Positions 371-9,360 of a stretch of 57,674 bases of DNA are shown here, one piece after another. Within the stretch, counting starts at the first letter, position 1. Each line of letters begins with the position of its first letter. The notes beneath the pieces are model-generated. The model did no database searches. It had not been told where the DNA came from and was given only the letters and a program-made list of their open reading frames with translations. The DNA is taken from assembly GCA_902384455.1 (NCBI GenBank), contig CABMCB010000010.1:1-57674 (forward strand). The letters run 5' to 3'. The translations under genes were made by a program, and so were the position numbers. The stretch comes from an uncultured archaeon. Lineage in GTDB: Archaea > Altiarchaeota > Altiarchaeia > IMC4 > SCGC-AAA252-I15.

Positions 371-835
371 ATGCTTAAAATAGGAGACATCGTTTTAGTA
401 GAACGAAAAGCGGAAAGTCACGAGCGCGGATGGCGAAATACGTGGGAAAAAGGAATGGACTCCGTTGTTGGAAAAACCGGCGTCGTTATCCGCTACAATA
501 AACTTCATCGCAATGTACACATCAAGGTAGACGGAAACATCGACGGCTACGGCTACCCAGATTTTGTTCTTCGCAAATTTAAGCATGCGGCGGGTATGCG
601 AATCACAAAAATTAAGCGGGCCGGGGGAAGGAGCGGACTTAAAATTTATGCCGAGGTGTCCGGGGCACACGGGAAGAATTATTTAGTCGGATACTTTCGC
701 CGCAACAATTTCCGAGGCTGGCAATGCACTTGCAAAAATTTCTTCTTTGACGCATTCAAAAAGAACCGGAACTGCAAGCATATCAAGCTGGTTCGCGCTG
801 AAACTGGACGCTACGGCGGCGGAGTACCAGAGTAA
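371..835 (+). CDS. SWIM-type zinc finger protein
   Basis: The 154-residue protein has an N-terminal SH3/KOW-like beta region (KIGDIVLVER, then GKTGVVIRYN) and a C-terminal CxCx(n)CxH motif (CTC..., then CKH, residues about 118-137) typical of SWIM zinc fingers, which bind nucleic acid or protein. The start codon ATG follows an AGAGA stretch. The protein is probably nucleic-acid binding, but its role is unknown. It is the last gene before the candidate structured RNA, so association with that RNA is possible but only inferred from position. Confidence 0.6.
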   Translation: MLKIGDIVLVERKAESHERGWRNTWEKGMDSVVGKTGVVIRYNKLHRNVHIKVDGNIDGYGYPDFVLRKFKHAAGMRITKIKRAGGRSGLKIYAEVSGAHGKNYLVGYFRRNNFRGWQCTCKNFFFDAFKKNRNCKHIKLVRAETGRYGGGVPE

Positions 836-854
836 AATTGGTACTAAAGTACTA

Positions 855-883
855 TTGACGAAAAACAGAGACAGGCTCATACT
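855..883 (+). promoter_or_regulatory. Sigma70-type promoter for the structured RNA region
   Basis: TTGACG (855-860), a 17-bp spacer and CATACT (878-883). It lies just after the stop codon of the 371 gene and points into the long gene-free stretch. The predicted transcript would start near 890. Confidence 0.5.
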
Positions 884-889
884 GGTTAC

Positions 890-1505
890 AGATTAGGGAG
901 TGAGAAGCAGCCCCTGATGTGGCCCGACACTCCCACGATGTTTCTAGCAGTGACGTTATGACGTAGGCGGCAAGGCACCGCCCTCGCAAAGAGCAGGCCA
1001 GCTACTAAACTGGACGCCCCTGCACCTCTAACGTTACTGCTAGGCGCATCGAGAGCTGAACCGCTGAGGCTTCACCGAGATAGAAGCCGATTTGAGAAGC
1101 GAGTGGTGCGCCAACAATTTTCGGCGGCATCGGGAGCAAGTACCCGAGCGGGAGCGACCCCGAGCCAAGCGAGCACCGCCGAGTCGCTTTAGTATTAAAG
1201 TTTCTCGGGCAGTGAAGTGCGGCTCTTCCGTGACGGCTGCGAGGTACACCACGGCATTGGGTACGTTTGGCGGACCACTTCCGGGCAACCGGGGCGTTGA
1301 CAGCCAGCGGACGCTAATCAATGCGAAGGGTGACGAGAAACGGGCGGTTTGTACTACCTTGAAATGTCCGACGATGGGTGCGGCGAAATACCTGCTTTGG
1401 CCGAAAGCTAAAGCGTAAAGGGAAAGCGCATCGCGAACAGCGACACCCACAGGCGTTGTTAGCCTCGGCGGTAGGACGCCCGTACCAAGGTACCGGAGGC
1501 TAATA
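890..1505 (+). ncRNA. Candidate large structured non-coding RNA (or giant leader)
   Basis: About 600 bases with no convincing gene but with consecutive nested helices. 896-902/928-934 (7 bp); 944-958/1029-1043 (15 bp with one G-U), enclosing 966-970/978-982 and 993-997/1019-1023 with inner 998-1001/1010-1013; 1044-1048/1107-1111, enclosing 1068-1073/1083-1088; 1121-1127/1176-1182, enclosing 1130-1134/1143-1147; 1187-1191/1196-1200; 1244-1250/1259-1264 with one bulge; CCGG-GCAA-CCGG (1281-1292, GNRA loop); 1394-1398/1404-1408; 1431-1434/1440-1443. A promoter precedes it and it ends at a ribosome-binding site. It may belong to a phage large-RNA class such as GOLLD or ROOL or be new; I see no decisive class signature. 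The open frames here (1092-1418 plus, 1040-1534 minus) look like chance frames. Confidence 0.6.
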
Positions 1506-1506
1506 A
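1456..1506 (+). promoter_or_regulatory. Three-way junction sequestering a ribosome-binding site
   Basis: TTAGCCTC (1459-1466) pairs with GAGGCTAA (1496-1503), extendable to 11 bp (1456-1466/1496-1506). It encloses GGCG-GTAGGA-CGCC (1467-1480) and a GTACC/GGTAC element (1482-1493). The 3' arm contains the GGAGG (1495-1499) and reaches the A of the ATG at 1506. Translation of the 1506 gene would therefore depend on opening this stem. Confidence 0.5.
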
Positions 1507-1700
1507 TGCCGGATTTTCTCATCACCGTACACACAGACCCTCCCCGTTCCTACGTGGTGGAGGGCGTGCCAAGTGCCGAGACCGCGTGCGCCAAACTTTT
1601 GGCTTTGCTGGGCAGCGACCCCGGTGTCGAGGTTGATGTTATCAGAACACCGCTCAACGTCAATCCAATGGAGAAGTTCCCATGCTTGTCGTCGTCATAG
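1506..1700 (+). CDS. Hypothetical 64-residue protein
   Basis: A short protein with an alternating hydrophobic start (DFLITVHTD) and a helix (AETACAKLLALL), probably a small alpha/beta fold. The ATG has GGAGG 7 bases upstream, but that site is inside the stem described at 1456-1506. Its end overlaps the next tiny membrane ORF. No family recognised. Confidence 0.55.
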   Translation: MPDFLITVHTDPPRSYVVEGVPSAETACAKLLALLGSDPGVEVDVIRTPLNVNPMEKFPCLSSS

Positions 1701-3342: not shown

Positions 3343-4080
3343 ATGACGATAAACGCCACACCACCAACCGTAGCGGCCACGGACCCACTTTCGGTGGTCG
3401 AAAACTTCGTCGGGCACTGGGTAACATTGGTGAAGGCACATGAAAAGTTACTGCTATTCGTCATCGTTTCCGCCACCCTCGTGCATCTCGGCTCCAAGGG
3501 GCTTAATATCTACGACAAGCACCTACATAACGTGGACGCACAAAACCAATCCCAAATCACCGCACTAGAAACTAAAATTGCACAAAGTGCCAAGGACCTC
3601 GCTGCGCTACAACTCACAGTAGATGCCAACGCCAAAATTTCGGAAGCCAAGATTGCCGCATCGAAGCAAAAGCTAATCGTGGCCCAGAGTAACGACGCCG
3701 CGCTGCCGTTGCCGGAACTCTCCGCGCACTGGCAGGACTTGCTCGTGCTCCCTCCGGGCAGCGTAACGCCGCAGCCTAACGGCACCGTAGCGGTCACCAC
3801 CGATGCGGCCCACACCACTGTAAACGAGCTCGAAAAGGTTTCCGCATTGGTGGAACAGAATCTTGAAACGCAGAACGAGTTGAAGGGCTGCACCAATGTA
3901 CGTGCCGCACAGTCGGGACAGATTGCCCAGCTCACCTCCGACCTCGAATTACAAAAGAAAGGCCGTGCGGAAGATGCTAAGGCTGCTGCGGTGGACCGCA
4001 AGAAATCGTGGTGGAACGGGTTCAAGTGGGGCGCAGTGGCTGGTTTCGTCGGCGGTATCATCACATTACACAAAATTTAA
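3343..4080 (+). CDS. Membrane-anchored coiled-coil protein, possible spanin-like
   Basis: A 245-residue product with a transmembrane helix near residues 37-56 (LLLFVIVSATLVHLG), long coiled-coil stretches on both sides of a Pro-rich break near residue 130 (LPPGSVTPQP), and a second glycine-rich hydrophobic segment at the C-terminus (GAVAGFVGGIITL). The single Cys is in the distal coil. The layout resembles envelope-spanning phage proteins such as spanins, but the endolysin is 24 kb away and no lipobox is seen. Start ATG 3343 has GGGAG 6 bases upstream, part of the 29-bp repeat. Confidence 0.55.
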   Translation: MTINATPPTVAATDPLSVVENFVGHWVTLVKAHEKLLLFVIVSATLVHLGSKGLNIYDKHLHNVDAQNQSQITALETKIAQSAKDLAALQLTVDANAKISEAKIAASKQKLIVAQSNDAALPLPELSAHWQDLLVLPPGSVTPQPNGTVAVTTDAAHTTVNELEKVSALVEQNLETQNELKGCTNVRAAQSGQIAQLTSDLELQKKGRAEDAKAAAVDRKKSWWNGFKWGAVAGFVGGIITLHKI

Positions 4081-4092
4081 GAAAGAGGTCTC

Positions 4093-5703
4093 ATGAACGT
4101 AGCGAAGATTGACAGAACGTCAACCGAAGAGGTGTCCGCTGTATTCGCGAAGCACGGTGGCAATATCCGCGCAACTGCGAAGGAGCTAGGAATCGCCCGT
4201 AGCACAGTCCGCGCAAAGTTGAAGCCGCTAGGTCATTTGAAGAAGCCCTTGGCAGCGGGAACCGTCGAAGGAACAAAGGTCATCAAAATTAAACCGCACA
4301 CATCCGGTGTGAAGCGCTACATTCTTACCTCGGCGCAGAATAACACGTTTGTGCATGAGAGCGCGTGGGCCAACCTGCTTGCGCTGGCAAGTCACTACAA
4401 CGCAGATGTTTTTGTCGGCACATATACGTATAATCAGAACGCTTTCGGTAAGCTGAGCGTGAAGCGCGGCAAGGAAAAAGAGGAGCAAAAAGACCTTTGG
4501 TATGACCCAAAGGTTGTCCCATTTATCCGGGACGAGCGCGTCGAACTAGGGAAGGGTCTCGTGTGGTGCGGGGAGATGAATACACTTCCTACTGCCGTAA
4601 ACCCCTTGGCCGGGTTTGAGTCGTACACTGGACGCTCATCCGCAATTTTTCCCCACGCCAAGCTGGCGATGCGCTCTATCGCGACGATGCAGGGTGAGGG
4701 TGTGAAGTTGAATTACACCACAGGAACTGTGACCCAGCGTAACTACATTCAGAAGCGGGAAGGATTGAAGGCCGAGTTTCACCATATCTACGGCGGGCTA
4801 CTCGTGGAGGTTAATGCTGCCGGAAATTGGTGGGTTCGTCAGTTGAACGAAGACGAAAAAGGAGTGATGCAGGACCTTGATGTCAAGGCCGATAACGGCT
4901 TCGTAACGACTGATAACCAAATTGAGTCGGTAACACACGGTGACCTGCACGGCACATTCGCTGACCCGGAGATTGTAAAGACCTCGCTCGATATGGTTGA
5001 CACATTGCGACCGAAGTTTCAGTTCCTCCACGACGTGATGGAGGGCGCATCTATAAATCCGCACCAGCGCAAGCACCCCAGTAACTTTGATAAGTTTCAC
5101 ACTTGGCTGCGCGGATACCATCGTCTAGATGCGGAGTTGAAGGAAACCGCGACCTTGCTCAATGCTTATCACCGCGATTTTGCAAAGACCGTCATCGTCG
5201 ATTCAAATCACGACGACCCGTGGTTGAAGCGTTGGTTGCAAGAGTACGACTACCGAAAGGACCCGGCGAACGCTGAGTTGCATCTCGCGTTGCAAACGTT
5301 TGTGTACCAGCAAGTTCGCAAAGGTAAGATGGTTCGAGACATTAGCGTGATAGAGCATGCGCTTCGCAAGGAAGGCTACGAGGCCCCGGCAAAGTTCTTG
5401 CTCACAGACGAATCATTCCTGACGTGCGACCGTAAGATTGAAAACGGTATGCACGGCCATCTCGGCCCTGCTGGCCGCTGGGGCTCGCCGGAGAATCTTA
5501 GCAAGATGGGGCGCAAGGCTAACACCGCTCATACCCACACATGCGGAATTTACGACGGTCTTTACGTCGCGGGAACATCATCGAAATTACGCTGGGATTA
5601 TACGAAAGGCCCCAGTTCTTGGACGAACTCACACGTCGTAACATACCCTAACGGAAAAAGAACTATAATCACCATTTTCGGTGGTAAGTGGAGGGCAGAA
5701 TGA
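4093..5703 (+). CDS. HTH plus metallophosphoesterase protein (T5 A1-like layout)
   Basis: A 536-residue protein. Residues 1-50 hold a Fis-type helix-turn-helix (NIRATAKELGIARSTVRAKL). The rest has calcineurin-like metallophosphoesterase motifs in order: HGDLH near 280, SNHDD near 372, HGHLG near 455 and AHTHT near 478. The order D-x-H, N-H, H, H-x-H matches binuclear metal phosphoesterases. The layout recalls the DNA-transfer/nuclease protein A1 of T5-like phages, so a nuclease or phosphodiesterase that binds DNA is plausible; the specific homology is from memory. ATG 4093 follows AAAGAGG. Confidence 0.65.
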   Translation: MNVAKIDRTSTEEVSAVFAKHGGNIRATAKELGIARSTVRAKLKPLGHLKKPLAAGTVEGTKVIKIKPHTSGVKRYILTSAQNNTFVHESAWANLLALASHYNADVFVGTYTYNQNAFGKLSVKRGKEKEEQKDLWYDPKVVPFIRDERVELGKGLVWCGEMNTLPTAVNPLAGFESYTGRSSAIFPHAKLAMRSIATMQGEGVKLNYTTGTVTQRNYIQKREGLKAEFHHIYGGLLVEVNAAGNWWVRQLNEDEKGVMQDLDVKADNGFVTTDNQIESVTHGDLHGTFADPEIVKTSLDMVDTLRPKFQFLHDVMEGASINPHQRKHPSNFDKFHTWLRGYHRLDAELKETATLLNAYHRDFAKTVIVDSNHDDPWLKRWLQEYDYRKDPANAELHLALQTFVYQQVRKGKMVRDISVIEHALRKEGYEAPAKFLLTDESFLTCDRKIENGMHGHLGPAGRWGSPENLSKMGRKANTAHTHTCGIYDGLYVAGTSSKLRWDYTKGPSSWTNSHVVTYPNGKRTIITIFGGKWRAE

Positions 5704-8751: not shown

Positions 8752-9360
8752 ATGGCAGAAATGAGAACAATGAAGCCGTTTGAAAAGCCGGAAGGCGGCT
8801 CGTATATCGGAACCATCATTGACTTCGTTACCAAAGAAGTCGCTGATACCGATTATGCAACCCGCATGCAGAAAGTCGGCCCGGACGGTAAACCAAAAAC
8901 CAAGTTTCAAGTTACGTGGACTTGGGTGTTGAATGCGAACGACAAAGAGGGACGTGCGTTTCAGGTATTTGAGACATACGACGCATATCAGAATCCCGCA
9001 AAGCCATCCAAGTTGGACAAGGCTTTGACGCAGATTTTGAATGCTGCGCCCCCTCTTCTCTCGGATACCGACCAGCTAGAGCCGTTGCTGCTGAATCGTG
9101 CTAATGAACTATTCATCACCAAGAGTCCGAAGGTGAGCAACCCAGCCGAAATGACCGTCAAGGTTATTGGGCATACTCCTCTAAAGCCGGGCCAGCTTGC
9201 ACCACAAGCGCCGAAGGACTTCATCCGCTTCAAAAACCGTACGAAGGGCACTACTGGCCCGAATCCCGGACAGTCTACCCAGACATACGCTCAGCAGCCA
9301 AGCCAGCCAGCGAATAACGTTTCGTTGAACTCAGCACCAGAAGAAAACGAAGCGTTTTAA
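8752..9360 (+). CDS. Single-stranded DNA-binding protein-like
   Basis: A 202-residue protein with an N-terminal beta-rich domain (GGSYIGTIIDFVTKE... FQVTWTWVLN) and a low-complexity Gln/Pro tail ending in acidic EENEAF. The acidic tip ending in Phe is the hallmark by which SSBs recruit replication partners. The fold also recalls the DUF669 family of phage ssDNA-binding proteins. It has its own promoter and sits between the exonuclease and primase. The identification rests on the tail plus context. Confidence 0.6.
   Translation: MAEMRTMKPFEKPEGGSYIGTIIDFVTKEVADTDYATRMQKVGPDGKPKTKFQVTWTWVLNANDKEGRAFQVFETYDAYQNPAKPSKLDKALTQILNAAPPLLSDTDQLEPLLLNRANELFITKSPKVSNPAEMTVKVIGHTPLKPGQLAPQAPKDFIRFKNRTKGTTGPNPGQSTQTYAQQPSQPANNVSLNSAPEENEAF

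Follow-up and report, generated by a model that had tools for sequence, protein, structure and literature searches.

A predicted modular RNA family outside Rfam in a clade of uncultured tailed phages

Introduction

Few large structured phage RNAs exist, and their functions are open. Two of these, GOLLD and ROOL, are thought to act as a decoy, a scaffold or an RNA-only assembly; a homo-oligomeric RNA cage is characteristic of both. The PeSL cassettes of T4-type phages consist of a promoter plus a stem-loop, and HEARO is an HNH-associated RNA and ORF. Neither GOLLD nor ROOL has a known function; both are phage RNAs often found near tRNAs, and the GOLLD linker holds a tRNA in some cases (PMC12286853). 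The put RNA of HK022, present in two copies per genome, is ~70 nt long and made up of two stem-loops (PMC9378689).

The RNA described here lies within a 57,674 nt stretch of DNA (the window), which is a piece of a tailed phage. It resembles GOLLD as a large structured phage RNA with tRNA-like pieces at the locus in relatives, as sometimes in GOLLD (PMC12286853), and it resembles ROOL in being phage-borne, large, elaborate and of unknown function. However, comparison of window 800-1700 with Rfam 15, both at gathering thresholds and at E values up to 10, revealed no family, and the GOLLD and ROOL models were likewise unmatched in relatives L003, L004, L009, L014 and L007. Most members are much shorter than GOLLD, at about 150-300 nt, and the RNA lies beside ribosome-binding sites rather than in tRNA islands as for ROOL. 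GOLLD is longer than ~800 nt with a conserved 3' region, whereas here it is the promoter-proximal ~165 nt that is conserved. GOLLD and ROOL are the nearest systems as elaborate phage RNAs, but membership fails on the Rfam models. A preliminary description, made from the window alone, had offered an RNA of this kind or a new class; the first option is unsupported and the second gains support.

In position, the nearest functional analogue would be HK022 put, an antitermination RNA that makes RNAP read through terminators. It is likewise folded and placed shortly after an early phage promoter, 'early' being judged here from the neighbouring genes. The likeness is one of position, not sequence: in place of two stem-loops, ~70 nt in all, that contact the beta' zinc-binding domain, there is a hairpin followed by a multibranched domain of ~120 nt closed by a long helix, in one copy. 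As in PeSL, promoter and RNA structure are gained or lost together between genes, but this RNA is much larger, is not a simple hairpin and is single copy. As in HEARO, a structured RNA lies upstream of an HNH gene, but there is no Rfam match and the HNH gene occurs without the RNA in L002 and L012.

Promoter and setting of the locus

The main features surrounding the RNA are as follows.

371-835, + strand: SWIM-like zinc-finger ORF, upstream, a locus marker in most relatives (Pfam SWIM only at E 0.1)
855-860 and 878-883, + strand: -35 and -10 elements of a sigma70-type promoter, TTGACG-N17-CATACT (spacer 17 nt)
1506-1700, + strand: first ORF 3' of the RNA, 64 aa, its ATG shortly after GGAGG; coding status unproven
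1683-1766: short membrane-peptide ORF (in relatives: L004 5706-5810; L006 3690-3810; L009 3250-3350; L010 3889-3978; L036 3543-3633; L037 3682-3770)
2883-3314, + strand: endonuclease VII-like (HNH) gene, downstream (phrog_307, E 3e-33)
4093-5703, + strand: T5 A1-type DNA transfer protein gene, downstream (phrog_1745, E 1.4e-163)

The promoter is located as originally claimed, and from its position the RNA is expected to start at about 889-891. Its -35 context, GTACYATTGACG, recurs in related phages, ahead of other genes as well as of the RNA. No terminator-like site was found on the + strand between the RNA and the next ORF within the window. No homologue of ORF 1506-1700 was found; small ORFs also lie downstream of the RNA, and between 1506 and about 38 kb the main long ORFs share, for the most part, one direction. 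The short membrane-peptide ORF recurs downstream of the RNA and ends near IDMGR in most of these phages. In L009, an ORF directly 3' of the RNA locus (3346-3930) contains a GDARVSGNAWVF-like repeat in many tandem copies. Elsewhere in the window, tiles 226-450 and 8926-9075 (150 nt) give folding z values of about -4 to -6; the former contains a strong hairpin, GAGCGAGAGGGCAC..TGCTCTCTCACTC, at about 314-343 between two ORFs.

The bin holding the contig looks archaeal: eIF-6 is present, and neither sigma70 region 3 nor bacterial 16S was found in the bin. The phage nevertheless carries sigma70-type promoters and Shine-Dalgarno sites. The contig may therefore be mis-binned, or the host may be an unexpected one.

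Structure and covariation of the promoter-proximal region

Immediately behind the promoter the following elements are predicted.

896-934, + strand: hairpin 1, GGGAGTG (896-902) with CACTCCC (928-934), the first structure behind the promoter
936-1051, + strand: core domain, comprising P1 (936-940/1047-1051), an internal loop (TTT/GCG) and P2 (944-958/1029-1043)
966-982, + strand: P3 hairpin within the core, GGCGG (966-970) with CCGCC (978-982)
993-1023, + strand: P4 within the core, 993-997/1019-1023 and 998-1001/1010-1013

The 15-bp long-range helix of the preliminary description, P2, is present and exact except for one G-U pair (CTAGCAGTGACGTTA at 944-958 with TAACGTTACTGCTAG at 1029-1043). 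Over 887-1505, the MFE is -251.4 compared with -227.9 +/- 7.4 for shuffled sequences (z -3.15, from 20 shuffles only). With 100 shuffles each, 889-1054 (z -5.36), 936-1054 (z -5.46) and the terminal hairpin stretch 1455-1505 (z -3.56) stand out, and 1055-1505 alone is weak (z -1.84). On these values by part, the thirteen cleanly nested stems described earlier reflect a GC-rich fold, in which the first ~165 nt and the last hairpin clearly exceed chance.

Related IMG/VR loci were located through their SWIM, HNH and A1-type proteins, and a clear core homologue was found in eight phages (L003, L004, L006, L007, L009, L010, L036 and L037). Across nine cores, 98.5% of P1 and P2 cells are paired, and nine of the 15 pairs are altered on both sides (0/500 shuffles). 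With a covariation score of 0.544, the real alignment far exceeds shuffled (0.188) and slid (at most 0.144) ones; adding L016 in a model-fitted alignment gives 0.647. RNAalifold energies lie below 200/200 column shuffles in all four alignments tested. Four relatives have an equivalent of hairpin 1. Its loop, GACCTGAGARACC, is invariant, and its 6-bp stem covaries, with 5/6 pairs altered on both sides among the four copies; the window hairpin, a divergent form, was left out of this count. The core interior is common to the window and L037, between which P4 has three compensatory pairs; since P3 is identical in L037, it is predicted but neutral in this comparison. The preliminary description had made its case dependent on compensatory changes, and these were found for P1 and P2, for hairpin 1 and for the tail (below).

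Among members, P1 and P2 contain 14 G-U cells and one A-C. This bias points to an RNA of the + strand rather than a DNA cruciform, and transcription is suggested by the promoter together with these strand-specific pairs.

Two long frames cross the region, 1092-1418 (+) and 1040-1534 (-). No match was found for either in Pfam or, by tblastn, in the related loci, nor for the minus-strand frame in the phage collection, and a coding explanation was rejected. Indels between the homologues have lengths not divisible by three, so the region is non-coding in its behaviour.

A family of related RNAs

Homologues of 936-1054 share a genomic address, usually behind the SWIM-like gene and upstream of the endonuclease VII and T5 A1-type genes. 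The family plan consists of a promoter, often a first hairpin, then P1 (GATG-like), a loop and a CTNGCAG helix; on the 3' side the variable interior is followed by CTGCTAGGCGCATCG, with a ribosome-binding site further on. The RNA is about 610 nt in the window and about 160-210 nt in L003 and L036, and some members have hundreds of extra nucleotides between core and ORF; 'giant' fits few of them. One copy is present per phage record in all seven records with a match.

A covariance model, R1, scores window 935-1052 at 76.7 bits, the window being in the training set. Outside that set it found L016 4558-4687 (28.4 bits, E 2.5e-5), a match that is weak at the P1 end and rests largely on an interior common to L004 and L007. 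A similar arrangement in L014, with an 18-bp helix of different sequence, was not found by R1. With compensatory changes exceeding controls and recovery of the unseen L016, the RNA can be regarded, on comparative sequence grounds, as a new family, modular and single-copy, whose members belong to a clade of uncultured tailed phages that carry a T5 A1-type gene.

The interior hairpin of the L004/L007/L016 type shows compensatory changes. Its motif, ACAGCACCCACGTAAGTCCRAGMGCGGTGGG, lies in a covarying stem and is also found as an exact copy in L165, a 39-kb contig whose relation to the clade is not established; there it precedes a small ORF that has a Shine-Dalgarno site. The positions are as follows.

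L165 1860-1925, - strand: ACAGCACCCACGTAAGTCCRAGMGCGGTGGG hairpin motif
L004 5543-5590: the same motif
L007 1890-1936: the same motif
L016 4584-4630: the same motif

Comparison of L002 (5377-5400) with L003 (5243-5460) reveals promoter and RNA to be cleanly absent from the former and present in the latter between the same two flanking genes. Because this near relative lacks both together, promoter and RNA appear to behave as one cassette that is not essential. L003 and L002 form a natural presence/absence pair; the RNA could be tested in the laboratory if a cultured relative were found. The closest cultured phage by A1 is Pan1 (46% identity), in which the genes upstream of the A1 gene are closely spaced.

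In wider searches, the window, L006, L010 and L052 RNAs showed no DNA similarity to 50,697 phage records. The pattern CTAGCAG..CTGCTAGGCGCA gave three true members in viral contigs; matches in L028 and L030 lie inside genes and were dismissed as chance. A hairpin-1 pattern had 30 matches, with the expected paired stem and core only in the four already known. Among genome contigs, the SWIM-protein scan gave no match and the HNH scan only distant HNH proteins. No further RNA was found at 58 A1-type loci, and long gaps in L008 and L012, considered as RNA sites, were rejected when they proved to be coding.

tRNA-derived modules

At the same address, some relatives carry modules that appear to derive from tRNAs, each standing after a promoter of the same kind and before the RNA or gene that follows; in L009 and L010 this is between promoter and core. 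Rfam identifies L052 1121-1247 as a tRNA (46.5 bits) in which 63 nt replace the anticodon loop. In L050 1517-1675, acceptor, D-like and T arms can be recognized by eye, enclosing ~120 nt. L009 2333-2555 and L010 3547-3710 each combine an acceptor stem and a T loop with a CUGAUAA-like anticodon loop, the D arm being replaced by a structured insert. These inserts are about 60-180 nt long (anticodon region in L050 and L052, D arm in L009 and L010). ARAGORN called no tRNA in any of the four modules. Neither ARAGORN nor Rfam found a tRNA or tmRNA in the window; only relative L052 matches tRNA. Such modules at one address suggest that the phages build RNA parts by recombination.

Tail domain and middle stretch

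The 3' part of the window RNA contains the following features.

1341-1482, + strand: tail domain, T1 (1341-1346/1477-1482) and T2 (1354-1358/1470-1474)
1367-1370/1375-1378, + strand: hairpin within the tail domain
1395-1401/1407-1413, + strand: hairpin within the tail domain, loop CGAAA
1459-1503, + strand: terminal hairpin, TTAGCCTC (1459-1466) with GAGGCTAA (1496-1503); z -3.6 for 1455-1505

Window 1293-1483 resembles L052 1453-1636, with a score reached by 0/150 shuffled sets. Between these two sequences, nine of 22 pairs are altered on both sides, and the CGAAA hairpin (1395-1413) is largely re-written. As the structure was picked on the same two-sequence alignment, the tail covariation is support for this pairing, not proof. 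The GNRA-capped CCGG hairpin reported earlier does exist in the tail (CCGG-GCAA-CCGG), but is not conserved in L052, the sole relative of this part. The terminal hairpin, for which no counterpart was found in the relatives read, covers the Shine-Dalgarno GGAGG (1495-1499) with its 3' arm and competes with T1 and T2 for 1470-1482, and thus with the tail pairing conserved in L052. For the middle stretch, 1055-1290, neither comparative support nor a relative was found. The proposal of a structured RNA with its own promoter accordingly stands as to structure, non-coding character and promoter, but not as to its GOLLD or ROOL nature or this middle stretch.

Possible functions

The preferred explanation, to which a probability of about 45% is given, is an uncatalogued modular RNA family in which each member is a promoter-proximal leader, made with the early transcript and acting in cis. 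Sequence comparison shows the layout behind the sigma70-type promoter: a 5' hairpin (most members), next the domain that P1 and P2 close around a variable multibranched interior and that ends at GGCGCATCG, and downstream the ribosome-binding site of the next ORF. Produced as the 5' part of the early transcript, the RNA would act in cis whichever gene comes next, and the folded element could affect the elongating polymerase or the stability or translation of the early message; binding to RNAP or another protein is a guess. The RNA is directly downstream of the promoter in most members, and P1 reaches to within about 0-2 nt of the Shine-Dalgarno sequence in L003, L010 and L036. In several members the domain borders a ribosome-binding site and so resembles the 5' part of an mRNA rather than, clearly, a free-standing giant RNA. 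Many phages encode a small membrane peptide in the next ORF, others something different. A gene-independent leader fits best because of the single copy, the lack of a terminator, the Shine-Dalgarno adjacency, the varying next ORF and the absence from L002. Against a leader, the elaborate, fast-changing interiors and the tRNA-like modules exceed what a simple one needs; a put-like element would usually serve several early promoters, whereas the family is single-copy; members differ, with no common pattern, in how the ribosome-binding site is predicted to pair; and in some the core is far removed from the ORF.

A trans-acting RNA (decoy, scaffold or RNA-only assembly), cut or terminated from the early transcript and directed at a host factor or defence system, is tentatively considered nearly as likely as the leader. 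The large modular interiors, own promoter, single copy and apparent dispensability (L002) would suit it, as would the tRNA-derived modules in L009, L010, L050 and L052, given that GOLLD and ROOL are often near tRNAs and the GOLLD linker sometimes contains one (PMC12286853). However, the window has no terminator behind the RNA, the RNA abuts the ribosome-binding site in several phages, the GOLLD and ROOL models are unmatched and most members are < 300 nt.

A translational or metabolite-responsive (riboswitch-like) leader of the next gene, with the last hairpin hiding the Shine-Dalgarno sequence of ORF 1506, is unlikely. Hairpin 1459-1503 does cover GGAGG, in competition with the tail pairing that L052 conserves, but it lacks a counterpart in the relatives read, and the next gene differs between phages. 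It is highly improbable that the inverted repeats act as DNA (a cruciform, an origin or a T5-like injection stop signal) with incidental transcription. T5 DNA entry pauses near the A1 gene region, and the locus is near an A1-type gene; against this, G-U pairs far outnumber the rare A-C mismatches (14:1), L002 lacks the element and the promoter points into the repeats. Chance folding of GC-rich DNA or an unrecognized gene can scarcely be entertained, given covariation in four separate structural parts and no protein homologue, although, for the tail by itself, folding exceeds that of shuffles only slightly; chance folding is refuted for the core and possible for 1055-1290.

Implications

Compensatory changes in nine phages, a covariance model and a fixed genomic address together argue for a real structured RNA, outside Rfam, that is conserved in a clade of uncultured phages. 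A more ambitious reading, which is doubtful, is a new phage RNA machine with a fixed P1/P2 clamp, a swappable interior and 5' modules, and a host-factor target early in infection. If true, it would be an RNA machine that swaps modules, tRNA-derived ones included, and that modifies the polymerase or serves as a decoy for RNA-targeting defence.
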